Source: Myxococcota bacterium
GTDB lineage: Bacteria; Myxococcota_A; Bradymonadia; UBA7976; UBA1532
DNA length: 64,000 bases
Reading direction: 5' to 3'
NCBI GenBank assembly: GCA_963169045.1
Contig: CAUJDF010000044.1
Coordinates: forward strand, 558,001-622,000
Made by a program: the position numbers and the translations under genes. Positions 6,400 through 27,868 of this stretch are shown one piece after another (within the stretch, counting starts at the first letter, position 1; each line of letters opens with the position of its first letter). The notes under the pieces were generated by a model. That model was not told the DNA's origin. It made no database searches and saw nothing but the letters and a program-made list of their open reading frames with translations.

Positions 6400-6524
6400 G
6401 CGGTGCCTCGAGGATCAGGGTCCCGCAGAGGCCAGGAGCAAGCGCCGGGCCACGCGTGACGGCCCGCATCGGAAGCGGGATCGGCGTCGGGACCGTCGGT
6501 GGGCTGGCGCCGGGCGTCAGGGGG

Positions 6525-6553
6525 TTGGCGCAGGCCGCCGAATTGCCTATCGT
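6525..6553 (+). promoter_or_regulatory. Promoter of the hydrolase-like lipoprotein
   Basis: TTGGCG (6525-6530), 17-base spacer, TATCGT (6548-6553); the predicted start is about 24 bases before ATG 6584, which has GGAG at 6574-6577. Confidence 0.5.
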
Positions 6554-6583
6554 CTCGCGATTCGTCCGGGCACGGAGCGAACG

Positions 6584-8968
6584 ATGCGGCGCGGTCGGCG
6601 GTGGCAGGTGTGGATCGTCCTGTGGGGGCTGGCGGCGTGCGACCTCGCGCGAGACAACGAGTCGGCGCGCGGCCTCGTCGACGACCCCTGTGACAGCCAG
6701 GGCGACTGCGCCGGCGGCCACGTGTGCTCGTCCGAAGGCTTCTGCGCCGAGCCCGGCGCCACCGGGACCGTGCCCGAGGACGCCGCCTGCGCCGCCGACG
6801 CCGACTGTCTCTTCGGGCTCGTGTGCAACGCCGACGGGAAGTGCGCGGAGCGGCGCCAGGGCGCGGTGGGCGCCTCGTGTCGGGGCGGCGACACGGAGTG
6901 CCGCGACGCGCTCGTGTGCGACCAGGACGGCAAGTGCGCCGCCGCGGGCGAGCCGGGCACGACGGCGGAGGGCGGCGAGTGCGCCGCCGACGCCGACTGC
7001 GCATACCGGCTCGTGTGCGGACCGGAGTCGCGCTGCGTCGCGCTGTCGCGATGGGCCGGCGTCTCGTGCGACGCCGCCGGCGACGCCGAGGGCCCGCCGC
7101 GCGTGATCTTCGAGCGGCCGTTCGCCGGCGGAGAGTTCTTCCGCCTGCCCTTCCCCAACGACGCGCGGGCCAACGACGGCGTGATCGATCTCTCCGGCTT
7201 CCCCGGGCTCGACCAGTCGCCCGAGCCCGGGGACCTGCTCGGGCGCTTCGCCGCGGCCGTCGTCGAGCAGCGCCGCGGGTTCGGGCTGAACCCGTCGGTC
7301 GTCTTCCGGTTCAGCACGGCGCTCGACTTCGACACGCTGAAGTTCGGCGGCGAGACGTCGACGTTCACCTTCGTGGATGTGACGCCGGGCGGTCCGCGGC
7401 ACGGGCGGCGTCCGCGCTCGCGCTTCTTCGCGACGACGGACCGCGCGCGCTACGTCTGCAACCACTGGCTCGGCATCCGGCCCAGCGAGGGCTCGCCGCT
7501 GGACCCCGAGAGCACGTACGCGGTGGTGTTCCGCAAGGGCATCCGCGACGCCCGCGGGCGACTGCTCGAGCCCGACCGCGACTTGGCCGCCGTCGTCGGC
7601 GAGGCGGAGCCGGACCACCCGGCGCTGCGCGCCATCTGGAACAAGTACGCGCCCTTGCGCGCGTGGATGCGCGAAGAGGGCATCCCGCCCGGCGACGTGA
7701 TCGGCGGGACGGTCTTCACGACCGGGAACCCGGTGGCCTCGGTGCTCGGGCTGCGCGACGCCGTGCAGGCGGCGCCGCCACCGCAGATCGAGGCGCTGAC
7801 GCGCTGCGGTCCGGGCGTGACGTCGCCGTGCGAGGCCGGCGGCGAGCGGACGTGCGGCGCCGCGAACGACGCCTTCGACGAGTACCACGGGCGCGTGACG
7901 CTGCCCGTGTTCCAGCGGGGCGTCCCGCCCTATGCGGAGCGCGGCGGCGATGTGGTGCAGGCCGACGGCGTCATCCGACGACAGCGGATGGAGTCGGTCT
8001 GCGTGGCGTTCACGGTGCCCAAGGGGAGCGACGGGCGGTCGCCGGTGGCCCTGTATGCGCACGACCTCGGCGGTCACTTCCGATCGTTCGTGGTCGACGG
8101 CTTCGCGGCGAGGATGGCGTCGCTCGGGTGGGCCGTCATCGGCTTCGACGGCGTGCTGCACGGTCCGCGCGCGGGCGAGGCGCCGCCGGGGGACGCCGCG
8201 GGCGCGGCGGCGCTGCTCTTCAACCTGAAGAACCCGTCGGTGCCGCGAGACACCTACCTGCAGGCGGCGGCGGATCTCATGCAGCTGACGCGTTTCGCGC
8301 GCGACGTCGAGCTCGAGGAGGACGGACGTACGCTGGCCTTCCGGCGCAACGCCATCGCGTTCTTCGGGCACGGCTTCGGCGCCGAGGCCGGCACGCTCTT
8401 CCTGGCGCTCGAGCCCGAGGTGCGCGCCGGCGTGCTCGCGGCGGGCGGCGGCGGCATGGCGGACCGCCTGCGGCTGACGCGGGCGCCCTTCCCCGTGGCC
8501 GCCGAGGTGGCGCAGGGCCTGGCCGAGCCCGAGCCCAACGGCATGCATCCGGGCCTGGCGCTGATGCAGACGTGGCTCGATCCCGCCGATCCCGTGAACT
8601 TCGGGGAGTTGCTGCGCGCGCCGCCGGAGGGCGTCCCCGGCAAGCACGTGTTCCTCCTCGCCGGCATCGACGACCCGGTGATGCCGCCGGCGAACACGAA
8701 CCAGCTGGCGATCGCGCTGCGGGCGGAGCGCGTGGGGCCCGAGCTCGCGCGGATGGAGGCCGTGCCACCGGTCGAGGGCGGCGTCGCCCGCGGCAACGTG
8801 CGCGTGCGCGGCGGCGACGTCACCCGCGCGGTGCGCCAGTACACGGCGGCCGACGGGCGGGATCCGCACCGCGTCGCGTTCGAGCTCCCCGCGGCGACGC
8901 GCGACGTCGAGGTCTTCTTCGAGAGCCTCCTCGCCGATCCCGACGGCATCCCGCGCGTCGTGCCCTGA
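6584..8968 (+). CDS. Large lipoprotein, alpha/beta-hydrolase fold without nucleophile Ser
   Basis: 794 aa. The lipoprotein signal MRRGRRWQVWIVLWGLAAC puts the lipidated Cys at 19, followed by Asp. Residues about 30-160 hold four Cys-rich units of the type C-x(5)-C-x(6)-C-x(5)-C (CAADADCLFGLVCNADGKC and relatives), a Dickkopf-like pattern common in myxobacterial surface proteins. The rest resembles the large bacterial lipase family: FPNDARAN near the start, VALYAHDLGGH as oxyanion-side strand, then FFGHGFGAEAGTLFLAL where G-H-S-x-G is expected, and a late HVFLLAGIDDPVMPPANT strand with an Asp. The nucleophile position is Gly, so catalysis by the usual triad looks lost. Probably an exported binding or structural protein. 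Confidence 0.7.
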   Translation: MRRGRRWQVWIVLWGLAACDLARDNESARGLVDDPCDSQGDCAGGHVCSSEGFCAEPGATGTVPEDAACAADADCLFGLVCNADGKCAERRQGAVGASCRGGDTECRDALVCDQDGKCAAAGEPGTTAEGGECAADADCAYRLVCGPESRCVALSRWAGVSCDAAGDAEGPPRVIFERPFAGGEFFRLPFPNDARANDGVIDLSGFPGLDQSPEPGDLLGRFAAAVVEQRRGFGLNPSVVFRFSTALDFDTLKFGGETSTFTFVDVTPGGPRHGRRPRSRFFATTDRARYVCNHWLGIRPSEGSPLDPESTYAVVFRKGIRDARGRLLEPDRDLAAVVGEAEPDHPALRAIWNKYAPLRAWMREEGIPPGDVIGGTVFTTGNPVASVLGLRDAVQAAPPPQIEALTRCGPGVTSPCEAGGERTCGAANDAFDEYHGRVTLPVFQRGVPPYAERGGDVVQADGVIRRQRMESVCVAFTVPKGSDGRSPVALYAHDLGGHFRSFVVDGFAARMASLGWAVIGFDGVLHGPRAGEAPPGDAAGAAALLFNLKNPSVPRDTYLQAAADLMQLTRFARDVELEEDGRTLAFRRNAIAFFGHGFGAEAGTLFLALEPEVRAGVLAAGGGGMADRLRLTRAPFPVAAEVAQGLAEPEPNGMHPGLALMQTWLDPADPVNFGELLRAPPEGVPGKHVFLLAGIDDPVMPPANTNQLAIALRAERVGPELARMEAVPPVEGGVARGNVRVRGGDVTRAVRQYTAADGRDPHRVAFELPAATRDVEVFFESLLADPDGIPRVVP

Positions 8969-10814: not shown

Positions 10815-11792
10815 ATGGACGCCCCGGTCACCCTCGAGTCCCCCGACTGCCTCGTCTGCGGCGGTCGCACCTTCCGCACGGTGCTGCGCGACGTGCGCGA
10901 CCTGGTGTGGCGCAAGCCCGGCACCTTCACGCTCCAGCAATGCGACGGCTGTGGTCTGGTCGTCACGCGGCCCCGCCCGGCCACGGACGTGCTGGGGTTC
11001 TACTACGAGAACGCCTACTCGGGCGAGGCCCAGGACGGCATGCGGCGCTTCCAGACCGAGAGCGGGCTGATGCGGCTCATCAACCGCTACCGCCTCGCCG
11101 TCGTCCAGAGGGTGCGCAAGCTCGGCGGCGAGGACCGGCTGCTCGACGTCGGGTGCAGCTACGGCGGCTTCCTGCGGGTCGCGCGCGAGGGGACGGGCTG
11201 CGTGACGGCGGGCATCGACTTCGACGCCGGGAGCATCGAGCGTGCGGTCGACAAGGCGGTGACCGAGTACCGCACGGGCGCGCTGGTCGACGCCGACTAC
11301 GCGCCGGGCAGCTTCACGGTGATCACGTTCTTCGAGTCGCTCGAGCACCACCCGGACCCGGTCGCGGCGCTCGTCCGGGCCCGCGAGCTGCTGGCGCCCG
11401 GGGGGCTGTGCGTCGTCGAGGTGCCGAACTGGGGCGGCTTCTGGCGGCGCGTGTTCGGCCGCACCTGGTTGCCGCTCCTCGTCCCGCAGCACCTCGTGCA
11501 CTTCACGCCGGCGACGCTGCGGCAGGCCTTCGAGAAGGCCGGCTTCCGGCGCATGGAGCGGCAGCAGACGATGTTCTTCCCGCTCGAGGGCGTGGCGAGC
11601 CTGGGGCTGTGGCTGGGGCGGCTGCTGAGGATGCCGCCTCCGGGGAGCAAGCCCTCGTGGCGGACGCCGTTCGACGTCTCAGTCGGGCTCGGATTGCTCG
11701 CGCTGTACTTCGCGTTCGAGATCCCCAGCCAGGCGTTGCTGCGGCTGGTCGGCGCGGCGGGACACCAGATCGCCGTCGCTCGGCGCGATTGA
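10815..11792 (+). CDS. Class I SAM-dependent methyltransferase with N-terminal zinc ribbon
   Basis: 325 aa. The N-terminus has two CxxC pairs (CLVCGG at about 13-18 and CDGCG at about 44-48), a zinc ribbon often seen on sugar or natural-product methyltransferases. The SAM fold follows: DRLLDVGCSYGGFLRVA (motif I), AGIDFDAGSIERA, ITFFESLEHHPDP (motif II region), LAPGGLCVVEVPNWGGFWRR. Residues about 255-325 are hydrophobic and may form membrane helices. The divergent gene at 9177-10763 carries a related domain, which suggests a shared modification pathway, perhaps of a cell-surface glycan. The last 114 bases overlap the end of the opposing gene. Confidence 0.8.
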   Translation: MDAPVTLESPDCLVCGGRTFRTVLRDVRDLVWRKPGTFTLQQCDGCGLVVTRPRPATDVLGFYYENAYSGEAQDGMRRFQTESGLMRLINRYRLAVVQRVRKLGGEDRLLDVGCSYGGFLRVAREGTGCVTAGIDFDAGSIERAVDKAVTEYRTGALVDADYAPGSFTVITFFESLEHHPDPVAALVRARELLAPGGLCVVEVPNWGGFWRRVFGRTWLPLLVPQHLVHFTPATLRQAFEKAGFRRMERQQTMFFPLEGVASLGLWLGRLLRMPPPGSKPSWRTPFDVSVGLGLLALYFAFEIPSQALLRLVGAAGHQIAVARRD

Positions 11793-12962
11793 CTTCACCG
11801 TCTTGCCGACGACCTTGAGGGGCCCCTGGCCGGCGACATCGGCGGGGATGCGGCTCACCACGTCGTCCGGGTCGCGGATGATGAAGCAGCCGTTGGGCAC
11901 CATGCGCCCGCTGGCGAGCCAGAAGCCGGTGCCGGCGCGGCTGTGGTGGCCGAACGCCGAGCCCAGGAAGCGCGTGCCGGAGTCGTGCAGCTTGCCGTCG
12001 AGCGGTACGCGGATGGTCGCCTCGAAGTTGAGGTCGATCGAGAACGCGCCGCCAGTCGTGACCGCGCCGCGGCCGAGCACGCACTGCTGCATGAGGTACT
12101 GGCCGGCGACGGCCTCGGGGTACATCACGCAGAGGCGGACGACGGTGCTCTGGCTGACGAGGGCGCGCGGGCCGAGGGTCGAGAACTCCACCTGCCCCGC
12201 GGACATGACCGAGGCGCCGTCGCCGAGGCGGCTGAAGAGCACGCGCGCGAACGGGCCGACGCTCACGCCGTCGCCGAGGGTGCTGCCCTCGACGACCGCC
12301 GTCGGATGGATGTCGCAGTTGCGCCCGATTTGATTGAGCTTTCTCAACACGCGCCACTTGTTCGTCGAGCCGGCGCGGAAGGCGGCGCCAACGGCGCGCA
12401 GCATCCACTTCCACTTCGGCGTGCCGAGCAGCTCGATGCCGCCCGCGATCTGGTTGGCCCAGAGGATGTGCACCCAGTGGTGGAGCGTCATCAGCGGGTG
12501 CCGCGCGATGCCCAGCTTCATAGGCCCGTCGGCCGCGAGGAATGGCGACGCGGGCAGCTCGAGCACTTTCTCTTGCGGGTCGACCACGACATCGACCGGC
12601 GCCTCGCCGCGACCGCTCAGGAAGCGGATGCGGGTGAAGCGCCAGCCGGCCTCGACCGCCTCGACGTCGGGCTGGACCGGCACCGTCGTCCGCCCGACCT
12701 CGGATTGCTTGAGCACCAGCACGGCGTCTCGCCCGGCAGCGCCGTCGACGAACGCACGCAGCGCCCCGCCGGTGGTGAAGAGCGTGTCGGGGATGACCAG
12801 GCACGGCGGCCGCGGAGCGTCGGCGCGCGTGAAGCCGCCCTCGCGCAGGGCGTCCTCCTGCCAGGCCGAGAGCGGCCGGTTGTGGATGAGCGCGTCGCCG
12901 GGCGCGTCGCCGAAGGGCTCGATGCGGCGGCCGGTCACCTCGACGAAGACGGGCGTGGTCAC
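11679..12962 (-). CDS. Left-handed beta-helix (hexapeptide repeat) protein, sugar-nucleotidyltransferase-like
   Basis: 427 aa from GTG 12962. The middle part (about 215-345) has imperfect hexapeptide repeats (IGRNCDIHPTAVVEGSTLGDGVSVGPFARV, then LGDGASVMSAGQ and VLGRGAVTTGG), the left-handed beta-helix of acyltransferases and GlmU-type enzymes. The N-terminus (LIHNRPLSAWQEDAL) vaguely resembles nucleotidyltransferase-like leaders of sugar pyrophosphorylases, but I see no G-x-G-T-R-x nucleotide loop. The start overlaps the stop of the giant lipoprotein gene (GTGA at 12959-12962), so it is translationally coupled to it. The last 38 residues are antisense to the methyltransferase and highly charged. 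Reaction unknown. Confidence 0.65.
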   Translation of the reverse strand: MTTPVFVEVTGRRIEPFGDAPGDALIHNRPLSAWQEDALREGGFTRADAPRPPCLVIPDTLFTTGGALRAFVDGAAGRDAVLVLKQSEVGRTTVPVQPDVEAVEAGWRFTRIRFLSGRGEAPVDVVVDPQEKVLELPASPFLAADGPMKLGIARHPLMTLHHWVHILWANQIAGGIELLGTPKWKWMLRAVGAAFRAGSTNKWRVLRKLNQIGRNCDIHPTAVVEGSTLGDGVSVGPFARVLFSRLGDGASVMSAGQVEFSTLGPRALVSQSTVVRLCVMYPEAVAGQYLMQQCVLGRGAVTTGGAFSIDLNFEATIRVPLDGKLHDSGTRFLGSAFGHHSRAGTGFWLASGRMVPNGCFIIRDPDDVVSRIPADVAGQGPLKVVGKTVKSIAPSDGDLVSRRADQPQQRLAGDLEREVQREQSEPD

Positions 12963-15900
12963 GGACGGAGCTCGACGGTCAGCTCGATGGCGCCCGACGA
13001 TTCACGATCGCCCGGGTAGAAGAGGTCGGCGGCGATGGCCTCGGCCACGTCGGCCGCCGGCGCGTAACCCGGGGCGAAGTACAGGGCCGCCGGCAGGTCG
13101 ATCTGCGCCCCGCGCATGCGCACCGCCTGCTCGCCGATGAGGCGGTACTGCACGCCCGCGACCTGGTCGACGCGGCTCGGTACGAGCGCGAAGACCACCT
13201 GCGTCGAGTCGACGAAGCCGTCGTGGTCCGTCACGAAGTACGGCAGCTGTACGTCCCCGACCGCCATCTGCCGGACCTCGGCGACGTCGGCGGACTCCGC
13301 CAGCGTGCTGAGCGACTCGATGAACAGCGGTCCCGAGTCGTCGCCGGCGGGCAGGAGGCGCACGCGCAGCACGGTCGGCGCCGCGAAGTCGGTCAGGACC
13401 CGCACCAGCAGGCCATTGACGTTCACCCGCCGGTCCCCGGGGACGAGCGACAGCCCCGTGGGCACATTCTCGTGCCACAGCGACACACCGCCGAGCGTCT
13501 CACCGCTCTCGGGCGTCCAGGCGTCGCTCCCGTCGGCGTCCGGCGGCGAGAACAGGCGACCGGGGGTGTAGGTGCCTTCGCCGTCGGGGCCGGGCGACGG
13601 CAGCTCGATCGCCGAGGCGCGGCTCGTGACGAGCGGAGCGCCGACCCCGTCGACGACGATGTAGTAGTCGCCGGAGCGCGCGTCCGGGAGGGTCACGGTG
13701 CCGCCCTCGCCATCGGCGCAGGCCAGCTCGGTATCGGGGTCGTCGCAGAAGCGGCGCACGCTCACCACGGCGCCGTCGATGGCGGTGCCGGGGTTGGCGA
13801 TCGACGCGACGAGGGTGCCGCCCGCCTGATCCTCCTTGACGCGGAAGCGGAAGACGGCGTCGCCGGCCCCGCGCCCGCCGCACGCGAGCGTCACGTCGGC
13901 GTCGGCGAGCTCGGTGTTGTCGACGATGGCGCCGCCGGTGTCCGTCAGGTCGACGGCCCGGCGCTCGGCGCAGAACTGCGCCTCCTCGTCGCCGCCCGCG
14001 GTCGCGCACGCGAGATCGGCGAGGTCGACGAAGCCGTCGTCGTCGTTGTCGACGCCGTCGGCGCAGGCCGGCAGCTCGGCGGGATCGGTCTCGTCGCCGT
14101 CGTCGGCGCCCGTGCAGCCGGGATCGTCAGCGTCGATCCGCCCGTCGCGATCGTTGTCCTCGCCGTCGGCGCACGCCTCGACGAGGGCGGTGACCGTGGC
14201 CACGAGGTCGACCGGGCCGAAGTCGTCGTCGTTGAAGCCGTCGACGAAGACGAAGTACGTGCCCGCCTCGAGGCGATCGAACTCGAGGCGCGACAGCGGG
14301 CTGTCGCCGCCGTCGTCGTCGCAATCGAGCTCCGTGGCGACGTCGTCGCAATCGGAGCGGACGTAGAGGATCGTGTCCTCGCTGCTGTCGTCGGTCTCGA
14401 GCGTGACCCGCGACGCGACGCGCAGCGTCAGGGCGACGACGCGCTCCGGGGCGCCGTCGCTGCCGCAGGCGTCGCCCGCGTAGTTGTCGCCGGCGCCGGC
14501 GGTGTTCAGCGACAGGCGCCCGCCCTCCTGACCGAGCTCGACGACCTCCGCGAGCTCGCAGCGCGCCACCTCGGCGCCGCCGCCCGCCGCGCCACACTCG
14601 GGATCGGCCGGATAGTCGGTGCGCCCGTCGCCGTCGTCGTCCGCGCCGTTGGCGCAGACCGGCGGCACCGCCGGATCGACCTCGCTGGCGTCCCGTGGGC
14701 CGGTGCAGCCCGGATCGAGCAGGTCGACGAGCGCGTCGTCGTCGTTGTCGGCCTCGTCGCTGCACTCGGTGATGTTGCTCGTGATCGTCACCGACGCGGT
14801 GATGGCGCCGTCGCGCCGGCCGTCGACGAAGACGAAGTACGTCCCGCGGGCGAGGCCGGTCATCGCGATGCGCGAGTCGAGGCCGTTGCCCCCGTCGTCG
14901 TCGCACGCGATCTCGGTGCCGCCGTCGTCGCAGTCGCGACGCGCGAAGAGGTAGGGATCGCCGTCGCCGCCCGAGGTCTCGACCACCACGTCCGACGGCT
15001 GGTCGAGGCGGATGACGAGCACCACCTCGGCCATGTCGCGGAACTCGCCGACGCACGATCCGCGCGTCGCGTTCGCGCGCATCGAGAGCGGCACCTCGAA
15101 GCGGCCGCCGGCCTGGCCGACCTCGATCGTCTCCACGTCGAGGCTGCAGGCCCGCGCCTCGTTGCGCGCGCCCGCCGCCGGGCAGTCCGCATCGGCGGGC
15201 CAGTCGGTCTGCCCGTCCATGTCGTCGTCGAGCCCGTTGCCGCACTCGGGCAGCGGATCGGGGTCGCGCTCGTCGTTGTCGCCGCGCGACTCGCAGCCGG
15301 GATCGGCCAGATCGAGGCGCCCGTCGCCGTCGTCGTCCTGGCCGTTCCCGCACAGCGGCGGGTTGGATTCGTCGTTGTCCCCCGCCGCGCTGCAGCCGGG
15401 GTCGTCCGGCCAGTCGACGAGGCCGTCGCGGTCGTCGTCGAAGCGGTTGTGGCACCGGGCCGGCGGGACCGGGTCGATCTCGTCGGAATCGCTGGCCCAG
15501 CCGCAGCCGGCGTCCTCGGGCCAGTCGGTGAAGCCGTCGGCATCGTCGTCGCGCCCGTTCGCGCACCGCGGCGCCTCGGCGGGATCGGCCTCGTCGTCGT
15601 CGCCGCGGCCGCGGCAGCCGGGATCGGCGGGCCAGTCGGCCAGGCCGTCGCCATCGTCGTCGCGTCCGTTCGCGCACGTCGGCACGCCCGCGCCCTCGGC
15701 CTCGCTCCAGTCGCCGGGGCCGGCGCAGCCAGGATCGTCCGGCTCGTCGATCAGGCCGTCCTCGTCGTTGTCGGCGCGATCGCTGCACGCCGGGGTGCGC
15801 GCGGGATCATCCTCGCGCACGTCGCCGCGGCCCTGGCAGCCGGGATCATCGGGGAAGTCGGCGCGGCCGTCGCCGTCGTCGTCGATCCCGTTGGCGCACG

Positions 15901-17842
15901 CCGGCGCGGACGCCGGATCGGCCTCGTCGTCGTCACCGAGGCCGAAACACCCGGGATCACTCGGGAAATCAACGCGCCCGTCCCCGTCGTCGTCCGCCCC
16001 GTTGCCACAAGCGGCGTCGGCATCGCCGGCTTCGTCGTCGTCGGCCGCCGCGCAGCCGCGATCTTCGCCGTCCACCGCGCCGTCCCCATCATCGTCGAGG
16101 CCGTTCGCGCATGCGGGGCCGAGAAGGCGCGCCTCGAGGCTGAGCTCGAAGGCCGCGGGCTCGCCGTGGGGCTCCACGATCAAGTAGTGGCGGCCGGCGG
16201 GCAGCACGCGGACCTCGACGCGCGCGCCCGGCGCGACGTCGGTGCCGCGGGCGCAGGCCGCTTCGGTCGCGACGTCGTCGCAGTCGCTGCGGAGGGTCAG
16301 CGCCGTGCGCCCGACGGTGCCCGGATGCTGCGTGCTGGCGACCACCGTCGCCGCCTGCGGCAGGAAGAACGTGTAGACCTTCTCGGGGCCGAGGTCCTCG
16401 CCGCCGCACGTGTCGTCGAGCGCGTCCTCGGGGCCGAAGGCGCCCATCACGCGAGCCGGCATCGGCAGCACGAGCTCCTCGGCGCCGACACCGGCGCCGC
16501 AGGCCTCGACCTCGCTCGCGCCGCCGGCGGCGAGGCACGCCGGATCGGCCGGGAAGTCCGTCCGGCCGTCGGTGTCGTCGTCGATGCGGTTCGAGCACGC
16601 CGGGCGCTCGGCCGGATCGGCCTCGTCGCCGTCGGCCAGGCTGTCGCAGCCGGGATCGCGGCGGTCGATGGCGCCGTCGCCGTCGTTGTCGAGGCCGTCG
16701 CGGCAGGCCGGCGCGGCGAAGCGCTCCACGCCCAGCCGCACCGCCCCCCCCTCGGCGGCGCGCGTATCGACGAAGACGAAGTACGTGCCGGGCAGCGGCT
16801 GCGGCACCCGCACCGTCGATCCGGGCGCGCCCTGGGCGCCGCCGGCGTCACACGCGAGCTCGGCGCCGTTGCAGCTCGACCGCACGGCGAGCGCCGTGGG
16901 CACGCGCGTCTCGGGGAACGCGGTCGTGAAGACGAGCGCGTCCAGCGGTCGCTCGAGGTGGTACTCGAACACGAGCGACGGGCCCTCGGCGCCGCCGCAC
17001 GAAGCGGCGTCGCCCGCGAGGCCGGTGGAGGTGTCGGCGTCGACCGGCGCGCCGTCGGTCAACAGGAGCGTCGGCCGCGTCGTCCCGCAGCCGCCGGCCT
17101 CGTTCGACTCGCCGGCGCCGAGGCATCCGAAGTCGGCGGGCCAGTCGGTCAGACCGTCGCCGTCGTCGTCGACGCCGTTGGCGCACGCCGGCGCGGGATC
17201 GAGGTCCGCCTCGTCGCCGTCGCCGGCCCCGGCGCACCCGGGATCCTCCGGCCAGTCCGTCCGGCCGTCGCCGTCGTCGTCGAGCCCGTCGGCACACGCA
17301 GGCGGCACCTCGAGATCGTCCTCGTCGCCGTCGCCGGCGGCCTCGCAGCCGGGGTCGTACGGGAAGTCGACGCGGCCGTCTCCGTCGTCGTCGCGGTCGT
17401 TCTGGCAGGCGGTGACCGGGTCGAAGCCCGACTCGGTGCGGTCGCGGGGCCCCTCGCAGTCGGGATCTTCGAGGTCGGCGCGGCCGTCGTTGTCGTTGTC
17501 GACGCCGTCGGCGCACTCCGTCTCGGGCGGGTCGAGCTCGTCGTCGTCGTCCTCGCCCGCACAGCCGGGATCGGCCGGGAAGTCGACGCGGTCGTCGCGA
17601 TCGTTGTCGACCCCGTCCGCGCAGGCGGCGGGAGGCGGCGCGGCGTCGGGGCCGGCATCTTCGCCGGCGGGGCGTGCGTCGACGTCGCGTCCCCCATCGG
17701 ACGGGGCGGCGTCGCCCGCGATGCCCGGCCCGCGATCGGGCGCGTCCTGGCCCTGCCCGCTCTCCCCGTCGTCACAACCCGCGGCCACGGCGCCGGCGAC
17801 GGCCAGCAGCCACGCGAGCCGTCGCCCGGCACGCTCCCCCAT
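12959..17842 (-). CDS. Giant repeat lipoprotein B, 20 Asp-rich repeats and 5 beta-sandwich modules
   Basis: 1627 aa. Signal peptide with lipobox VAAG-C (about residue 23), then an Asp/Ala-rich linker. From about 74 to 1290 there are 20 copies of a 34-37-residue unit with core C-A-N-G-x-D-D-D-G-D-G-x-x-D-x-P-x-D-P-G-C, whose D-x-D-x-D-G loops look calcium-binding like thrombospondin type 3 or EF-hand loops. Five inserted beta-sandwich modules of the bacterial pre-peptidase C-terminal type end in (Y/H)-Y/F-x-(F/V/I)-V-(D/E). A unique domain closes the protein (about 1400-1627). ATG 17842 is preferred because AGGAG lies 8 bases upstream; GTG 17848 overlaps the preceding stop. It should stand at the cell surface as a rigid, Ca-dependent rod. 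Confidence 0.75.
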   Translation of the reverse strand: MGERAGRRLAWLLAVAGAVAAGCDDGESGQGQDAPDRGPGIAGDAAPSDGGRDVDARPAGEDAGPDAAPPPAACADGVDNDRDDRVDFPADPGCAGEDDDDELDPPETECADGVDNDNDGRADLEDPDCEGPRDRTESGFDPVTACQNDRDDDGDGRVDFPYDPGCEAAGDGDEDDLEVPPACADGLDDDGDGRTDWPEDPGCAGAGDGDEADLDPAPACANGVDDDGDGLTDWPADFGCLGAGESNEAGGCGTTRPTLLLTDGAPVDADTSTGLAGDAASCGGAEGPSLVFEYHLERPLDALVFTTAFPETRVPTALAVRSSCNGAELACDAGGAQGAPGSTVRVPQPLPGTYFVFVDTRAAEGGAVRLGVERFAAPACRDGLDNDGDGAIDRRDPGCDSLADGDEADPAERPACSNRIDDDTDGRTDFPADPACLAAGGASEVEACGAGVGAEELVLPMPARVMGAFGPEDALDDTCGGEDLGPEKVYTFFLPQAATVVASTQHPGTVGRTALTLRSDCDDVATEAACARGTDVAPGARVEVRVLPAGRHYLIVEPHGEPAAFELSLEARLLGPACANGLDDDGDGAVDGEDRGCAAADDDEAGDADAACGNGADDDGDGRVDFPSDPGCFGLGDDDEADPASAPACANGIDDDGDGRADFPDDPGCQGRGDVREDDPARTPACSDRADNDEDGLIDEPDDPGCAGPGDWSEAEGAGVPTCANGRDDDGDGLADWPADPGCRGRGDDDEADPAEAPRCANGRDDDADGFTDWPEDAGCGWASDSDEIDPVPPARCHNRFDDDRDGLVDWPDDPGCSAAGDNDESNPPLCGNGQDDDGDGRLDLADPGCESRGDNDERDPDPLPECGNGLDDDMDGQTDWPADADCPAAGARNEARACSLDVETIEVGQAGGRFEVPLSMRANATRGSCVGEFRDMAEVVLVIRLDQPSDVVVETSGGDGDPYLFARRDCDDGGTEIACDDDGGNGLDSRIAMTGLARGTYFVFVDGRRDGAITASVTITSNITECSDEADNDDDALVDLLDPGCTGPRDASEVDPAVPPVCANGADDDGDGRTDYPADPECGAAGGGAEVARCELAEVVELGQEGGRLSLNTAGAGDNYAGDACGSDGAPERVVALTLRVASRVTLETDDSSEDTILYVRSDCDDVATELDCDDDGGDSPLSRLEFDRLEAGTYFVFVDGFNDDDFGPVDLVATVTALVEACADGEDNDRDGRIDADDPGCTGADDGDETDPAELPACADGVDNDDDGFVDLADLACATAGGDEEAQFCAERRAVDLTDTGGAIVDNTELADADVTLACGGRGAGDAVFRFRVKEDQAGGTLVASIANPGTAIDGAVVSVRRFCDDPDTELACADGEGGTVTLPDARSGDYYIVVDGVGAPLVTSRASAIELPSPGPDGEGTYTPGRLFSPPDADGSDAWTPESGETLGGVSLWHENVPTGLSLVPGDRRVNVNGLLVRVLTDFAAPTVLRVRLLPAGDDSGPLFIESLSTLAESADVAEVRQMAVGDVQLPYFVTDHDGFVDSTQVVFALVPSRVDQVAGVQYRLIGEQAVRMRGAQIDLPAALYFAPGYAPAADVAEAIAADLFYPGDRESSGAIELTVELRP
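13970..17623. repeat. Coding repeat array of lipoprotein B
   Basis: Twenty units of about 105-111 bases, all in frame, clustered as 5 + 2 + 9 + 2 + 2 between beta-sandwich modules. Units differ at many positions, so the array is old and not a recent slippage product, but runs of gtcgtcgtc (Asp codons on the minus strand) recur in each. Confidence 0.8.
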
Positions 17843-17844
17843 GC

Positions 17845-20800
17845 TCACTGCTCCTGGACGGAAACCTCGAAGTTGCCGAAGCGCGGGGCGTCCTCGCCGC
17901 CGGGTCCGGCCTGCAGCTCGACGTCGGTCAGGATCGCCTGCGCCACCGCGCCGTTCTCGGCGTAGGTGAGCGCCACGTAGAACGTGGCGGGCAGCTTGAT
18001 GTCGGTGGCGGTGATCGTGATGTTGTCGTTGTTGTTCTGGTAGCGCACGCGCCCCAGCTCCTCCGGATCCGCCGGCAACATCATGAAGACGATCGGCGGG
18101 TCGAAGGCCGGGTTGGCGAAGTCGCGCTCGGCGGTGTTGAGGTAGGACACCTGCCGGCCCTCGAACTCGATGTTGCGCACCGCCGCCACCGTCGAGCCGT
18201 CGCTGCCCAGGTTGCCGGTGACGGTGATCGTGACCGGGCGGTCGTCGAATTCCTCCTGGGGCACGAACCGCACGCGCCACAGGTTCTGCGCCGGGAAGTC
18301 GCTCGAGAACGTGAACGCGTAGCCGCCGACGTTGTAGGGCCGGCTGCCGATCGACGGATCGATGTTCTCGTTGCGGGCCCCCTGGTGGGCGAACGTGAAC
18401 CTGCCGAAGCAGTCGAAGCCGTCGTTGCCGCCATCGGCCCAGCCGCAGCCCGGCGACGGGTCGCGCTCGTTGTGCTGCGCCTGGAAGTTGCGGGGATCGT
18501 TGGGCATGACGACCGGCCGGCCGCCGCTGACGTAGCGCTCCGGGCCCGCGCCGTCGATGAAGATGTAGTACTCGCCGGGCTCGGCGTCCTGCAGCGTCAC
18601 CGTCGGCTCGGGCCGCGCGAAGTCACCGGCGCAGGCCAGCATCGACGACGGCTCCTCGCAGTCGTTGCGGACGGAGACGACCACCGGGTAGTCGGTCCCC
18701 TCGTTCGCCGCGCTGATGCGCAGCGTCGCCGCCTGCGCGAGGACGTACTTGTAGACCGCGTCGGGCGCGTTCCGGCCGCCGCAGCGGGCGTTGTAGTCGT
18801 CGGGCTCGTCCTCGGCGGTGGCGCCCCGAACCGTGCCGTTGCGCGGGATGAGCGGCGTCGCGCGCTCCGGGCGGCACGCCTGGCTCTCGGTCAGGTCGCC
18901 GCGCGCCTGGCAACCGGGGTCGTTCGGCCAGTCGGCGAGGTCGTCCTCGTCGTCGTCCATCGCATTGCCGCACAGCGGCACGACGTCGGGGTCGCCCTCG
19001 TCGTCGTCGCCGCCGTCGAGGCAGCCGATGTCCTGAAGGTCGACGAAGCCATCGAAGTCGTTGTCGACGCCGTCTCCGCAGCGCGGCGGCAGGAAGCCCG
19101 GGTTGACCTCGTCGTTGTCGGCGGCGAACCGGCAGCCGGGGTCGTCCGGGAAGTCGGTGCGCCCGTCGGCGTCGTCGTCGCGCCCGTTGGCGCACTGGTT
19201 GTTGAAGCCCTGGTTCTCTTCGCTGGGATCGGCGGCGTAGGTGCAGCCGGGATCGAGGGGGAAGTCGGGGCGGTCGTCCATGTCGTCGTCGGCGCCGTTC
19301 GAGCAGACGGGCGGCACCTCGGGATCGACCTCGGAGTTGTGGGACGCCGCGATGCAGCCGCGGTCGAACGGGAAGTCGGCGATACCGTCGCGGTCGTCGT
19401 CGACGCCGTTCGAGCACACCGGGCGCTGGGCCGGATCGGCCTCATTGGCGTCGCCGGCGGAGAGGCACCCGGGATCGTTGGGGTAGTCGGCGATGCCGTC
19501 CATGTCGTCGTCGATGGCGTTGCCGCAGGCCGGCGGCGGCACCGGATTGCGCTCCTCGGTGTCACCGCGGCTCTGGCAGCCGGGATCGGCGGGGAAGTCG
19601 ATGCGGCCGTCGCCGTCGTCGTCGAGCCCGTTGCTGCACGGCGGCGGCGCGTCGGGATCCGTCTCGTCGTCGTCGCCGAGCGCGGCGCAGCCCGGGTCGT
19701 ACGGGTAGTCGGCGAGGCCATCGCCGTCGTCGTCCTCGAGGTTGCGGCAAGCCGAGGGCGGCGAGCCGCGCGGCGGATCGCGCTCGTCCTGGTCGTCGGG
19801 GCCGGCACAGCCAGGGTCGTCGGCGTCGACCTCACCGTCGCCGTCGCCGTCGCGGCCGTCGCTGCACCCGGGCGCCAGCGGCTCGACGTCGACGCTCACG
19901 CGGACGCGGGTGCCGTCGCGCATGCCGAGGGCGCTGTCGACGAAAAGGTAATACTCACCTGGACTTGCGCGATCGACCGTGATGCGTCCGGCGAGCGCGC
20001 CCGCCTGCAGCGGCTCGACACAGCCCCGCTCGCTGCCCGCCGTCGAGCACTCGGTGCGCACGTACAGCGTGGGCGTGAACTGGGTGTCCTCGTGCTGGGT
20101 GGAGAACGTCAGGCGGGCGTTGATCGGGTTCGAGTAGCGGACGATCACCTCGGGCTGGTTCAGCCCGCCGCAGCTCCCCGCCGCGGCGTTCGTCCCGTCG
20201 ACGGCGACGTCGTACAGGACCGAGTCCTGGTTGAACGGCCAGTCTTTGAAGCGCACGCCCTGCCCGCAGCGGTCGACCTCGTCGCGTCCGGACGCCGCGA
20301 TGCAGCCGGCGTCGAGCGGGAAGTCGACGCGGCCGTCGCGGTCGTCGTCGGCGTCGTTGGCGCAGGCCGGCGGCTCGTCGGGATCGGTCTCGTCGCGGTC
20401 GGCCGGGTCGTCGCAGCCCGGCTCGTTCGGGTAGTCGACGCGGCCGTCCTCGTCGTCGTCGAGGCCGTTGCGGCACGCGGCCAGCGCCACCTCCGACACC
20501 GTCAGCTGGACCGGGCCGCCGCGCCCCTGGGCGCCGTCCACGAAGATGTAGTAGTCGCCCGCCGCCGGCTCCTCGAGCAGCAGCGTGTGGCCGGGCTCGC
20601 CCTCGTCGCGCTGGCAGGCCACCTCGGCGCCGGCGTCGAGGCACGCCGTCCGGCGCACGTACAGCGTCGTGGCGGTCGTCGTCGCCGCGCCCTCGGTCGA
20701 GATGCGCAAGGCCTCGACGGCCCGGTTGAGCCGGTAGTGGTAGACGACCTCGGGGCTGCCGGCGCCGCCGCACGTCCCCTCGGCCCGGAACACGCCGCGG

Positions 20801-21699
20801 GCGATATCGACGACCAGCGTCTGGCCGTCGCTCAGGCTCGCCGGCGAGTACTGGCGGCCGCACGAGCCCGCTTCGTTGTAGTCGCTGGCCGCGCGGCATC
20901 CGTCGTCGTCGGGGAAGTCGATCTTCCCGTCGCCGTCGTCGTCGCGCCCGTTGGCGCACTGCGGCTGGATCGCCTTGTCGGTCTCGTCGCGATCACCCAC
21001 GCCGGCGCAACCGGGATCGAGCGGGTAGTCGATCAGCCCGTCGCCGTCGTCGTCGCTGCCGTTGCCGCAGGCGGGCGCCTGCGCCGGGTTGGCCTCGTCC
21101 TCGTCGCCCGCAGCGCTGCAGCCCGGCTCGTTGGGGAAGTCGATCACACCGTCGGCGTCGTCGTCGAGACCGTTGCTGCACGCCGGCGGCGTCGCGAGGT
21201 CGGCCTCGCTCGGATCGGCCACGCTCGAGCAGCCCGGATCCTCCTCGTCGACGAGGCCGTCACGCTCGTTGTCGAGGCTGTCGCCGCACTGCGGGAGCGG
21301 CGCGTCGTTCGTCTCGTCGTCGTCGCCGGCCGAGGCGCAGCCCGGATCCTCCGGAAAGTCGCGGTAGCCGTCGGCGTCGTCGTCCTCGCCGTTGGCGCAC
21401 GCCGGCGGGGGCGGCGGATCGCGCTCGTCCCGATCGTCGGGGCCGTCGCAGCCGGGATCGTCGCCGTCGACCTTGCCGTCGCCGTCGTTGTCGGCGCCGT
21501 CGCTGCAGTCCGGATGGTTCGCGTCCGGCGGCGCGCCGTCGCGCGCCCCGGCGTCGGGCATGCCGCCCTGTCCGCCGGCGCCGCCTTCGCCGCCCATCCC
21601 CCCGTTCCCGTCGTCGTCCCCGCTGCTGTCCTGACCGCACCCCGCCGCCGCGAGGGCGACGACCATCACGGCCGCGAGCGTTCCACGCCAAGCGCGCAT
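17845..21699 (-). CDS. Giant repeat lipoprotein A, 17 Asp-rich repeats and 3 beta-sandwich modules
   Basis: 1284 aa from ATG 21699. Lipoprotein signal with LAAAG-C (Cys 21), a Gly-rich linker (GGMGGEGGAGGQGG), then from about residue 65 to 942 seventeen units of the C-x-(N/D)-G-x-D-D-D-x-D-G-x-x-D-x-P-x-D-P-G-C type. The units are grouped 6 + 2 + 9, each group followed by a beta-sandwich module ending in YYIFVDG or similar. The C-terminal domain (from about 1050) is mostly beta (YAFTFSSDFPAQNLWRVRFVP, ITITATDIKLPATFYVALTY) and differs from that of lipoprotein B. It heads an operon with B and the beta-helix protein. The two look like an ancient tandem duplication whose C-terminal ends have been exchanged or diverged. 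Function unknown; adhesion or surface layer is a guess. Confidence 0.75.
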   Translation of the reverse strand: MRAWRGTLAAVMVVALAAAGCGQDSSGDDDGNGGMGGEGGAGGQGGMPDAGARDGAPPDANHPDCSDGADNDGDGKVDGDDPGCDGPDDRDERDPPPPPACANGEDDDADGYRDFPEDPGCASAGDDDETNDAPLPQCGDSLDNERDGLVDEEDPGCSSVADPSEADLATPPACSNGLDDDADGVIDFPNEPGCSAAGDEDEANPAQAPACGNGSDDDGDGLIDYPLDPGCAGVGDRDETDKAIQPQCANGRDDDGDGKIDFPDDDGCRAASDYNEAGSCGRQYSPASLSDGQTLVVDIARGVFRAEGTCGGAGSPEVVYHYRLNRAVEALRISTEGAATTTATTLYVRRTACLDAGAEVACQRDEGEPGHTLLLEEPAAGDYYIFVDGAQGRGGPVQLTVSEVALAACRNGLDDDEDGRVDYPNEPGCDDPADRDETDPDEPPACANDADDDRDGRVDFPLDAGCIAASGRDEVDRCGQGVRFKDWPFNQDSVLYDVAVDGTNAAAGSCGGLNQPEVIVRYSNPINARLTFSTQHEDTQFTPTLYVRTECSTAGSERGCVEPLQAGALAGRITVDRASPGEYYLFVDSALGMRDGTRVRVSVDVEPLAPGCSDGRDGDGDGEVDADDPGCAGPDDQDERDPPRGSPPSACRNLEDDDGDGLADYPYDPGCAALGDDDETDPDAPPPCSNGLDDDGDGRIDFPADPGCQSRGDTEERNPVPPPACGNAIDDDMDGIADYPNDPGCLSAGDANEADPAQRPVCSNGVDDDRDGIADFPFDRGCIAASHNSEVDPEVPPVCSNGADDDMDDRPDFPLDPGCTYAADPSEENQGFNNQCANGRDDDADGRTDFPDDPGCRFAADNDEVNPGFLPPRCGDGVDNDFDGFVDLQDIGCLDGGDDDEGDPDVVPLCGNAMDDDEDDLADWPNDPGCQARGDLTESQACRPERATPLIPRNGTVRGATAEDEPDDYNARCGGRNAPDAVYKYVLAQAATLRISAANEGTDYPVVVSVRNDCEEPSSMLACAGDFARPEPTVTLQDAEPGEYYIFIDGAGPERYVSGGRPVVMPNDPRNFQAQHNERDPSPGCGWADGGNDGFDCFGRFTFAHQGARNENIDPSIGSRPYNVGGYAFTFSSDFPAQNLWRVRFVPQEEFDDRPVTITVTGNLGSDGSTVAAVRNIEFEGRQVSYLNTAERDFANPAFDPPIVFMMLPADPEELGRVRYQNNNDNITITATDIKLPATFYVALTYAENGAVAQAILTDVELQAGPGGEDAPRFGNFEVSVQEQ
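18872..21507. repeat. Coding repeat array of lipoprotein A
   Basis: Seventeen in-frame units of about 105-114 bases, same design as the array in lipoprotein B. Confidence 0.8.
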
Positions 21700-21783: not shown

Positions 21784-22974
21784 ATGCTCATCTGGTGGCT
21801 GTCGGTGGTGGGCCTCGGGCTCTTGCTCCTGGGGTGGCTCGGGGCGCTGCGCAACGTGCTGCGGCGCGCCGATCAGCCGCCCGAGTTCACGCTCGATGGC
21901 CGGCATCCGCCCGATCCGCTGCCCGATCCGCCGCCGTCGCTCTCGATCGTCATCCCGGCGCGCAACGAGGCGCACAACATCGAGGCCGCCGTGCGCTCGG
22001 CGCTGGCCGTGGTCTGGCCGGGCCGCCTCCAGGTGGTGGTCGTCGACGACCGCTCGACCGACGGCACCGGCGAGATCCTCGCCCGCCTCGCCGCCGAGGA
22101 CCCTCGCCTCGTCGTGATCGGCGGCGCCGATCCGCCGAAGGGCTGGCTCGGCAAGCCGCACGCGCTGCACCTCGCCCAGCAGCGCGCCGACGGCGACTGG
22201 CTGCTGTTCGTCGACGCCGACGTGCGCCTCGCCCCGGACGGCCCCGCGCGCCTCGTCGGCCGCGCGATCCTCCAGGGCGCGCAGATGGCGAGCGGGCTCG
22301 GCCGCCTCACCGTCGAGACCTTCTGGGAGCGCGTCGTCCAGACGCGCATGGGCGCGGTCATCGCCGGCGGCAACCCGCTCGCCAAGGTCAACGATCCCGA
22401 CCGCGAGGACGTGATGGCCAACGGCCAGTGCCTGCTCTTCTCGCGCGCGGCCTACGACGCGATGGGCGGCCACGAGGGCATCCGGGGCAGCGTCCTCGAC
22501 GACGTGGACTTCGCGCGCAAGGCGAAGGCGCAGCGCGTGCCGTACCGGCTCTACTTCGCGCCGGACGTCTTCGCCTGCCGCATGTACAGCGGGCTGACCG
22601 AGATCTGGCACGGCTGGACGAAGAACCTTTTCCCCGCCCTCAAGTACAGCCTCGCCACGACCGCCTTCGTCACCTTCTTCATGTTCGCGACGAGCCTGCT
22701 GCCCTTCGTGCTGCTGCTGAAGAACGCCGCGCTCGCGGCGATGGGGCACCCGGTCGACCCGACGCTCGTCGCGCTCGAGGGCGCGCTGTGCGTGGTCATC
22801 CTCGCCGTCGACGGTATCGGCCATCGCGTCAACGGCTACCGCGCCGATCTCTTCTGGACGTTCCCGCTGGGCATGTCCTTGATCATCCTGCTCTTCTGGA
22901 ACAGCGCCTGGCGCATCCGCACGGGGCGCGGCGCCGTCTGGAAGGGCCGCGTGGTCGAAGGGCGTGGCGCTTGA
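21784..22974 (+). CDS. Family-2 glycosyltransferase, membrane-bound
   Basis: 396 aa. One N-terminal helix (2-20), then a GT2 domain: LSIVIPARNEAHNIEAAVRSAL, VVVVDDRSTDGTGEIL, GKPHALHLAQQRADGDWLLFVDADVRL (the DAD metal site), NGQCLLFSRAAYDAMGGHEGIRGSVLDDVDFARKAK with the acidic base. Three or four C-terminal helices follow (about 285-380). This layout matches CrtQ/HpnI-type enzymes that glycosylate lipids or carotenoid-like acids. It opens the operon with the dehydratase, ketosynthases and reductases 37 bases downstream, which suggests that the assembled acyl product is glycosylated at the membrane. Confidence 0.85.
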   Translation: MLIWWLSVVGLGLLLLGWLGALRNVLRRADQPPEFTLDGRHPPDPLPDPPPSLSIVIPARNEAHNIEAAVRSALAVVWPGRLQVVVVDDRSTDGTGEILARLAAEDPRLVVIGGADPPKGWLGKPHALHLAQQRADGDWLLFVDADVRLAPDGPARLVGRAILQGAQMASGLGRLTVETFWERVVQTRMGAVIAGGNPLAKVNDPDREDVMANGQCLLFSRAAYDAMGGHEGIRGSVLDDVDFARKAKAQRVPYRLYFAPDVFACRMYSGLTEIWHGWTKNLFPALKYSLATTAFVTFFMFATSLLPFVLLLKNAALAAMGHPVDPTLVALEGALCVVILAVDGIGHRVNGYRADLFWTFPLGMSLIILLFWNSAWRIRTGRGAVWKGRVVEGRGA

Positions 22975-23011
22975 ACGCCGACCCGCTCCGCTGTCACTAT
23001 TGAGGACCCGA

Positions 23012-23518
23012 ATGCGCTGGATCTTCCTCGACCGTATCACCGAGATCGTGCCCGGCGAGCACGCCGTCGGCCTGAAGGGTGTCGCCTCCAGCGAGGACTT
23101 CTTCGCCGACCACTTCCCCGGCTTCCCCGTCGTGCCCGGCGTCGTGCAGATCGAGGCGCTCGCCCAGCTGTCGGGCAAGCTCGTGCAGGTGTCGGTCGTC
23201 GAGCAGAAGAAGCGCTGGGTCTGGCCGATCCTCAGCATCGTCCGCAAGGCCAAGTTCCGGCGCTTCGTGCGGCCCGGCTCCTCGCTCGAGCTGCGCAGCG
23301 AGCTGTCGGAGCTGCGGGACGAGTCGGCGCTGTGCAAGGTGCAGGCGCGCTGTGAGGGCGAGCGTACCACCGAGGCCGAGCTGCTCTTCGTGTTCAGCCC
23401 CGGTGGGCTCGACACCGACCACTTCCAGGCGGAGCTCGAGACGTACGAGCGCAAGGCGCTGCAGATGCTCTGGGCCGATTTCCCCAACTGGGACGCGCGC
23501 ATGCGGAGCGAGCGATGA
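23012..23518 (+). CDS. FabZ-like 3-hydroxyacyl-ACP dehydratase
   Basis: 168-aa hotdog-fold protein. The FabZ signature F-x-D-H-F-P-x-x-P-V-x-P-G-V-x-x-I-E-A-L-A-Q is seen as FADHFPGFPVVPGVVQIEALAQ (about 31-52), with the catalytic His and Glu both present. It would dehydrate 3-hydroxyacyl-ACP to trans-2-enoyl-ACP. At 168 residues it is longer than the usual 140-150, with an extra charged C-terminal helix (QAELETYERKALQMLWADFPNW). The ATG follows TTGAGGACCCGA, a usable ribosome site. The stop overlaps the start of the first ketosynthase (ATGA). Confidence 0.85.
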   Translation: MRWIFLDRITEIVPGEHAVGLKGVASSEDFFADHFPGFPVVPGVVQIEALAQLSGKLVQVSVVEQKKRWVWPILSIVRKAKFRRFVRPGSSLELRSELSELRDESALCKVQARCEGERTTEAELLFVFSPGGLDTDHFQAELETYERKALQMLWADFPNWDARMRSER

Positions 23519-24759
23519 GGCGCCGCGTCGTCGTCACGGGCCTCGGGTGCGTCACGCCGCTCGGCAACGACGTCGAACGCACCTGGGCCGGCGCCGTCGC
23601 CGGGCGATCGGCGATCGCACCCATCACGCGCTTCGACGCCTCCGGCTTCGGCACGCGCTTCGCCGCCGAAGTCCGCGACTACGCGCCGCCCGCGCTCGAC
23701 CAGAAGTTCCAGCGCTGGCTCGACGCCAAGGCCGGCTTCGCCGTCGGCGCCGCCACCGAGGCCGTGACCGACGCCGGCCTGGGTGCGGTCTCGCCCGACC
23801 GGTTCGGCGTCAGCGTCGGCGCCGAGGTCAGCCGCCCCGACCTCGACGTGATGGCGCAGCGCCTGCGCAAGTTCGCCGTCGCCGGCGCGAAGGAGGCCTA
23901 CCGCGCCCTCGATCCGCGCGAGTTCGTGACGGTGACCGCCTGGCACCCGGCGGCCCTGCTCTCGTGCCTCTTCGACGCGCGCGGCCCGAACCTCACGACG
24001 AGCACCGCCTGCACCAGCTCGGCGCAGTCCGTGGGCGACGCGGCGCGCGTCATCCGCCGCGGCGACGCCGACGTGATGCTCGCCGGCGGCTGTGACCGCC
24101 TCGTCGAGGAGCTCATGGTCATGGGCTTCGGCCTGCTCGGTGCGCTCTCCACGCGCAACGACGAGCCGGCGCGTGCCTCCCGCCCGTTCGACCGCACCCG
24201 CGACGGCTTCGTCCTCGGCGAGGGCGCCGGCTTCGTCGTCCTCGAGTCGCTCGAGCACGCGCTCGCCCGCGGCGCGCGCATCCACGCCGAGCTGCTCGGC
24301 TACGGCTGCTCGGCCAACGCGTGGCGCATCACCGACAGCCCGCCCGACGGGCGCGGCGCGCGGCAGTCGATGGAAATGGCGTTGCGGGACGCGGGGTTGC
24401 GGCCCGACGACGTCGACTACGTCAACGCGCACGGCACCAGCACGCAGCAGAACGACGCCAGCGAGTCGGCGGCCATCCACGCCGTCTTCGGCGAGCGCCG
24501 CGTGCCCGTCTCGTCGACCAAGTCGAGCATGGGCCACCTCGTCGCCGCGTGCGGCGCCGTCGAGCTCATCCTCTGCGTGCGCGCCATCGAGGCGGGCCTG
24601 CTCCCGCCGACGGCCCACTACGAGCATCCCGATCCGGCCTGCAACCTCGACGTCGTCCCCAACGAGGCGCGGGCGGCCGAGGTGAACGTGGCGCTCACCA
24701 ACGCGTTCGGCTTCGGCGGCAGCAACGGCACGCTCGCCGTGGGCCGGTACCGGCCGTGA
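23515..24759 (+). CDS. Beta-ketoacyl-ACP synthase (FabF type), first ketosynthase
   Basis: 414 aa, full FabF/KAS II length. The catalytic triad is complete: Cys166 in STACTSSAQS, His306 in NAHGTST and His341 in SSMGHLVAACG. The C-terminus has the usual NAFGFGGSNGTL. It condenses malonyl-ACP with a growing acyl chain. Start ATG 23515 overlaps the dehydratase stop by 4 bases; its own stop overlaps the next start (GTGA). Three further ketosynthase units lie downstream, so this may be one member of a heteromeric pair rather than a housekeeping FabF. Confidence 0.88.
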   Translation: MRRRVVVTGLGCVTPLGNDVERTWAGAVAGRSAIAPITRFDASGFGTRFAAEVRDYAPPALDQKFQRWLDAKAGFAVGAATEAVTDAGLGAVSPDRFGVSVGAEVSRPDLDVMAQRLRKFAVAGAKEAYRALDPREFVTVTAWHPAALLSCLFDARGPNLTTSTACTSSAQSVGDAARVIRRGDADVMLAGGCDRLVEELMVMGFGLLGALSTRNDEPARASRPFDRTRDGFVLGEGAGFVVLESLEHALARGARIHAELLGYGCSANAWRITDSPPDGRGARQSMEMALRDAGLRPDDVDYVNAHGTSTQQNDASESAAIHAVFGERRVPVSSTKSSMGHLVAACGAVELILCVRAIEAGLLPPTAHYEHPDPACNLDVVPNEARAAEVNVALTNAFGFGGSNGTLAVGRYRP

Positions 24760-26951: not shown

Positions 26952-27868
26952 AGACCGCCCTGCTCTTCGCCGGCCAGGCCACGCAGTTCGTCGGCATGGG
27001 CCGCCACCTCTTCGACGCGTTCCCTGAGGCGCGCGCCGTCTTCGAGGCCGCCGACGAGGCGCTCGGCGAGCCCCTCTCGCGCGTGATCTTCGAAGGACCC
27101 GCGGCCGACCTCGACCGCACCGAGAACACGCAGCCGGCGGTGCTCACCGTCGCCTGCGCCGCCTGGGCGGTGCTCGACGCGCGCGGCTTCGTGCCCGCCG
27201 TCGTCGCCGGGCACTCGCTCGGCGAGTACGGCGCGCTCGTCGCCGCCGGCGCGCTGCGTTTCGACGACGCCGTGCGCCTCTGCCGACGGCGCGGCCAGTA
27301 CATGCAGCAGGCCGTCCCCGAGGGCGCCGGCGCGATGGCCGCCATCCAGCGCCTCGATCGCGACCAGATCGAGGCCGCCTGCCGCGCCGTCGAGGGTGTC
27401 TGTGAGATCGCCGCGATCAACGCGCCCGGCCTCATCGTCATCAGCGGCGAGCGGGCCGCCGTCGAGGCCGTCTGCAAGACCCTCGAGGGCGAGGCCATCG
27501 TGACGCCCCTGCCGGTCTCGGCGCCGTTCCATTGCAGCCTGCTCCGTCCCGCCGCGGACAGGCTGGCCGTCGACCTCGCCGCCGTCGATCTCGGCGCGCT
27601 GCGCTTCCCGTACGTGCCCAACGTCGACCCCGTCTTCACCGCGTCAGCCGACGGCGCGCGCGAGCGCCTCGTGCGCCAGGTGACGGAGGCGGTGCGCTGG
27701 TCGGAGACGATCGCGCACATGATCGAGCGCGGCGTCGAGCGCTTCTGGCACCTCGGTCCCGGCCGTTCCAACCTCACCCACGTGAAGCGCCAGGCGCGCC
27801 GCGCGGCCATGGGCAGCGCCGACGATCCGAAGGAGCTCGCGTCCATGTTGCAGGAGCTTTCGGCATGA
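26948..27868 (+). CDS. fabD: Malonyl-CoA:ACP transacylase
   Basis: 306 aa, usual FabD length. LLFAGQATQFVGMG at the start holds the oxyanion Gln, Ser90 lies in AGHSLGEYGAL, the Arg that binds malonate is in RRRGQYMQ, and His195 lies in APFHCSLL. It loads malonyl units on an acyl carrier protein for the ketosynthases around it. The start GTG overlaps the preceding stop. A dedicated fabD inside the operon, together with the missing acyl carrier protein gene, suggests either a shared housekeeping ACP or one encoded elsewhere. Confidence 0.92.
   Translation: MKTALLFAGQATQFVGMGRHLFDAFPEARAVFEAADEALGEPLSRVIFEGPAADLDRTENTQPAVLTVACAAWAVLDARGFVPAVVAGHSLGEYGALVAAGALRFDDAVRLCRRRGQYMQQAVPEGAGAMAAIQRLDRDQIEAACRAVEGVCEIAAINAPGLIVISGERAAVEAVCKTLEGEAIVTPLPVSAPFHCSLLRPAADRLAVDLAAVDLGALRFPYVPNVDPVFTASADGARERLVRQVTEAVRWSETIAHMIERGVERFWHLGPGRSNLTHVKRQARRAAMGSADDPKELASMLQELSA

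Follow-up and report, generated by a model that had tools for sequence, protein, structure and literature searches.

Two giant open reading frames, here called A and B, lie next to each other on the minus strand of the 64,000-nt sequence analysed ('the window': Myxococcota bacterium GCA_963169045.1, contig CAUJDF010000044.1, positions 558,001–622,000, forward strand). Gene B (17845–21699) encodes a giant lipoprotein of 1284 aa and gene A (12959–17842) one of 1627 aa; only two bases separate the B stop codon from the A start codon ATG, and a GTG 6 nt upstream is a possible alternative start for A. A gene resembling left-handed beta-helix (hexapeptide) transferases (11679–12962, minus strand) follows downstream, its start overlapping the stop of A (GTGA). 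Both proteins begin with a short signal peptide and lipobox cysteine, read from the translation (B, 21637–21699, LAAAGC followed by GQDSSG, lipidated Cys21; A, 17774–17842, VAAGC followed by DDGESG, lipidated Cys23), then a Gly/Asp/Pro-rich linker of approximately 45–50 residues, and then repeat arrays. The hydrophobic signal and lipobox cysteine seen on inspection are those of a type II signal peptide in both cases, so that the lipid anchor proposed in an earlier, sequence-only reading of this DNA holds, and A and B are predicted to be exported and lipid-anchored.

With R denoting a repeat, S a sandwich module and C the C-terminal domain, the architecture of B is 6R-S-2R-S-9R-S-C and that of A is 5R-S-2R-S-9R-S-2R-S-2R-S-C. 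By repeat pattern count, the runs in B comprise repeats 1–6 (20866–21507), repeats 7–8 (20269–20475) and a nine-repeat block, repeats 9–17 (18877–19866); those in A comprise repeats 1–5 (17093–17623), repeats 6–7 (16505–16705), a nine-repeat block, repeats 8–16 (15149–16111), and two extra modules, repeats 17–18 (14564–14764) and 19–20 (13973–14173). The totals of 17 (6+2+9) and 20 (5+2+9+2+2) given in the sequence-only reading proved exact, and the profile described below recovered 17 and 20 stretches. That reading had also placed beta-sandwich modules between the groups of repeats, and one module resembling the PPC domain does close every run, with three in B (20476–20865, containing four Cys; 19867–20268; 18520–18876) and five in A. 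Pfam PPC (PF04151) matched A (38.1 bits, cut-off 25.9) and gave no match in B, although the B modules nonetheless aligned with those of A when all eight were compared. In both proteins the last sandwich leads into the C-terminal domain (B, 17911–18489; A, 12962–13627), and the 2R-S-C tails of A and B were 37% identical.

The repeats belong to an established family, NCBIfam NF033662 (acidic double-disulfide repeat, acid_disulf_rpt), whose profile matched B with E = 5.6e-49 and A with E = 8e-74; whole-protein scores (163.5 and 243 bits) exceeded the curated cut-off of 41 bits, while single repeats of A and B scored below it. Repeats were 34–39 residues long, and five alignment columns (C1, D6, D10, D14 and C20/21) were invariant in 37/37, with three further columns conserved in at least 90%. 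Each repeat contains two Cys, C1 and C20/21, which are the outer pair; the second pair of the four-Cys NF033662 form was missing from all 37, and in most copies an aromatic residue (Phe, Trp or Tyr) preceding a Pro took the place of the inner Cys. As only the outer pair is present throughout, the A and B repeats can be classed, from their sequences, as a single-disulfide variant of NF033662. Four-Cys copies occur in the same genome, at four loci (L072, L073, L074 and L075; an example from L072 is CDDGGDDDGDGMADCADPECAGREPC). A survey gave 133 matches to the repeat in the host genome and none in 14/14 control genomes, and the arrays are therefore far beyond chance; the repeat was present in 94/111 genomes sampled across the phylum. 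Acidic repeat proteins abound in myxobacterial genomes. In the literature searched, no function for acidic repeat proteins was found, nor any paper using the name 'acidic double-disulfide repeat', nor any combining Myxococcus, thrombospondin, cohesion and calcium.

A connection to calcium emerged from structural databases. A four-Cys repeat protein (L129), encoded in a different genome of the phylum, matched the C-rich domain of teneurin-4 (7PLP) with E = 6.1e-6, its next matches being other teneurin structures, and a four-Cys paralogue in the host genome matched 7PLP with E = 2.1e-4. The two-Cys repeats of A and B alone reached only E = 0.11–0.14, and the calcium argument consequently runs through their four-Cys relatives. 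The teneurin-4 domain was crystallised with three Ca, at two sites like those of thrombospondin type 3 repeats and one like that of an LDL-A module, and contains a disulfide C838–C857 (PMC9058538), which aligns with C1–C20 of the repeat. By the same alignment, ligands D840, D843, D845, D847, D851 and D854 correspond to repeat positions 3, 6, 8, 10, 14 and C-3, and all six positions were kept in 37/37 repeats (N/D3, D6, D/E8, D10, D14 and D/E at C-3). An acid at the equivalent of teneurin D856 was present in 3/37, indicating that the third Ca site has probably been lost from A and B. Among 711 Cys-anchored repeats from 34 family proteins, the ligand positions were 95–100% Asp/Glu/Asn in the common 21-residue form, position 26 was acidic in 87% and E29 was present in 95%; this set was chosen by Cys spacing plus a minimum number of acids, a criterion that inflates the percentages slightly without favouring particular positions. 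Within the stretch of the teneurin domain that could be aligned, nothing corresponded to position 26 or E29. Matches to calmodulin were short look-alikes of EF loops and were not taken as homology, and Pfam TSP3 had no match in A or B.

Were the repeats to bind no metal, the Asp pattern would serve to keep an acidic linker, pinned by disulfides, soluble, as would suit a composition that is both acidic and Pro-rich. However, ligand positions have been selectively kept while their neighbours vary, and homology extends to a crystallised Ca domain, making this explanation highly improbable. Calcium binding by the arrays is the preferred reading, and the link to a crystallised Ca-binding domain offers a direct and cheap test of the function of acidic repeat proteins.

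Structure prediction was in keeping with a folded unit. A metal-free model of three tandem repeats, built from a register-true alignment of 18 rows (the window plus one named relative), had a mean pLDDT of 91.5 and a pTM of 0.80, with the repeats predicted to be ordered and to hold a defined mutual orientation. Almost no regular secondary structure was present, as would be expected for a unit held together by metal and a disulfide. An earlier model, covering three repeats, a sandwich and the C-terminus and based on a three-row alignment, gave pLDDT 22–44 for the repeats and was used for the C-terminal domain only; the contrast shows that prediction of the repeats depends on alignment depth. 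Foldseek and VIA-align found no solved structure similar to the three-repeat model, Foldseek returning only two insignificant chains, but as neither teneurin (7PLP) nor a TSP3 structure was among the chains compared, this null result is compatible with a shared fold. The repeats thus came out ordered rather than disordered, and the proposal in the sequence-only reading that they form Ca-stiffened rods is well supported by homology and prediction, given a solved relative with three Ca, ligand positions kept in 37/37 repeats and an ordered, if metal-free, model.

The number of repeats in the long block was strikingly constant. B has full-length homologues in its bacterial family at 51–62% identity, and orthologues in five genomes (G002, G009, G005, G004 and G006) have the exact 6-2-9 count. 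Individual repeats also hold their register: against the G002 orthologue, the best match of 13/17 repeats of B was the repeat in the equivalent position, and against the paralogue C94, whose N-terminal run is one repeat longer, 13/17 matched best with a uniform offset of one. The block following the sandwich contained nine repeats in nearly all genes surveyed, from two families of the order (exceptions: six in L123 and L124, seven in L125 and L126), while the N-terminal run varied from 4 to 8 across complete genes in the same survey, where the spacing was used to restore single repeats that the strict pattern had overlooked. The 2R-S-9R core measured 522–539 aa in 28 genes (standard deviation 4.7), with the caveat that survey loci were the best matches to B and that a gene counted among the 28 only if most of its core could be aligned, two choices that bias the sample towards a similar architecture. 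On these comparisons the 2-sandwich-9 core is ancestral. It is unusual for one array to stay at nine as its neighbour drifts between 4 and 8, which suggests that array length may itself be under selection.

This constancy bears on whether the arrays serve mainly as a reservoir of Ca2+ (or other divalent metal) or as a mineral-binding coat, with length and stiffness incidental. Their composition (approximately 16–17% Asp, pI near 4) and the 133 matches in the genome would both suit such a role, but any repeat number would then do, and yet almost all of the genes have nine in the core; likewise the repeats hold their individual positions (13/17 in either comparison above) and a dedicated C-terminal domain is conserved, so that a reservoir seems improbable. 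A structural role for the calcium-loaded arrays is retained here. Taken further, it would make the core a Ca-loaded ruler, whose selected repeat number sets a stand-off distance, with an aromatic-Pro core replacing the second disulfide, D26/E29 forming an extra and possibly inter-repeat Ca site, and the bacterial repeat family being the source of the animal teneurin C-rich domain; in its entirety this scheme is speculative and rather unlikely.

Since the 2+9 block is common to a gene family present in two bacterial families, its sharing by A and B is no sign that A arose from B. In four relatives (G002, G009, G005 and G011) the transferase-like gene lies directly after the B orthologue, with overlapping stop and start in two, and no A intervenes; in the window, A occupies the place between B and this conserved downstream gene. 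Searches of 14 relatives with A gave no close orthologue. Its tree branch is very long, and constraining A and B of this genome together was weakly rejected (p-AU 0.036), as was, by the same test, a recent tandem duplication of B into A. The sequence-only reading had suggested duplication followed by module gain: A is indeed extra by synteny and has two more 2R-sandwich modules than B, but the 2+9 block that they share is ancestral and A is no close sister of B. On sequence evidence A is best regarded as an added or differentially retained, fast-evolving paralogue carrying two extra 2R-sandwich modules.

Upstream of B and divergent from it, a plus-strand cluster (21784–29139) encodes a GT2 glycosyltransferase, several FabF-like ketosynthases and a FabZ-like dehydratase, and resembles a pathway of the type II fatty acid or aryl-polyene-like kind. 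The order glycosyltransferase-B-transferase was conserved in relatives, which indicates vertical inheritance of the locus and says nothing on function.

Other loci show the repeat in a range of settings. In the host genome, the paralogue L066 (C69, 5971–8661) opens with a sub-threshold match to the TSP3 protein MtsC, by name a cell–cell cohesion protein, and continues with 4R-S-C; the paralogues L062 (6425–9922) and L063 (7563–13319) have a STIG1-like/MXAN6577-like Cys-rich module after the nine-repeat block; and L072 (C60, 5451–8696) encodes an alpha/beta-hydrolase-like lipoprotein ending in seven four-Cys repeats, to whose hydrolase part a window ORF (5303–8968) looks similar. Proteins larger than A and B occur in the same family, where two adjacent giant ORFs (L088, G012:C7, 5326–18701) each encode a 34-repeat array followed by sandwich-2R modules. 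In the same order, an ORF of at least 2561 aa (L087, G014:C17, 1–7683) consists almost wholly of alternating 2-repeat/sandwich modules, about a dozen times.

The C-terminal domain of B (residues 1071–1263) was modelled with moderate confidence as a super-beta-sandwich. In structure comparison it resembled the N-terminal super-beta-sandwich of GH65, GH94, GH116 and GH63 enzymes (Z approximately 10, rmsd 3.4–4.0 over 165–179 residues for the best rows), and the catalytic barrel of these enzymes was absent from it. As a guess from this model, the domain may be a glycan-binding tip.

In E. coli, Asp at +2 causes inner-membrane retention, and A has Asp at +2; in M. xanthus the suggested signal is Lys at +2, which directs proteins to the inner membrane, with Ala at +7 directing them to the extracellular matrix (PMC3222651). 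Neither M. xanthus signal was present in A or B, a pattern compatible with the outer membrane that does not decide on its outer leaflet. Lipobox and disulfides establish export and anchoring only, and, with the Asp at +2 of A and the failure to find a known surface-sorting motif, they would suit periplasmic lipoproteins spanning or bracing the envelope between outer membrane and peptidoglycan. Searches of A and B with Pfam and NCBIfam recognised no peptidoglycan-binding domain, however, and 17–20 repeats plus 3–5 sandwiches seem long for the periplasm; this placement is rather unlikely.

We infer instead that A and B are exposed at the surface. Each acidic repeat would fold around about two Ca2+ and one disulfide (C1–C20/21), and Ca-loaded runs, spaced by PPC-like beta-sandwiches, would build a long, rigid stalk. 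With its N-terminal lipid fixing it in the membrane and the super-beta-sandwich at its far end, the stalk would keep this C-terminal domain, which may bind glycans, a defined distance away from the outer membrane. A Ca-stiffened, outer-membrane-anchored stalk of this kind, displaying its C-terminal domain and working most probably as a Ca-dependent surface adhesin or spacer, is the interpretation we moderately favour, adhesion being the likeliest use.

The sandwich modules of A match the PPC domain, which elsewhere is a protease appendage; in A and B it acts as a spacer separating one repeat run from the next, and has two conserved Cys pairs. Relative to NF033662, the repeats are the same by profile and share the acidic pattern resembling Ca ligands, but have two Cys rather than four, mostly an aromatic residue and Pro in place of the Cys at position 15, and two additional conserved acids, D26 and E29. 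The Asp ligand pattern and first disulfide of the teneurin C-rich domain (7PLP) align one to one with the short repeat form, although in teneurin the domain occurs once and carries three disulfides and three Ca, whereas A and B have arrays in which the D856 ligand is mostly gone. Thrombospondin type 3 repeats, including those of myxobacterial MtsC and TraB, are likewise DxDxDG repeats of Ca-binding type in envelope proteins, but the disulfide and spacing in A and B differ. In M. xanthus, the Cys-rich repeats of TraA have been proposed to act as a stalk that presents a recognition domain at the surface, and TraB of myxobacteria has TSP3 repeats (PMC6372800); together with the sub-threshold MtsC-like stretch of the paralogue L066, these are precedents for the proposed role of A and B. 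The idea of a Cys-rich repeat stalk is common to TraA and the proteins described here, but TraA builds it from different repeats, with a PA14-like tip and MYXO-CTERM sorting, and is not a lipoprotein, as A and B are predicted to be.
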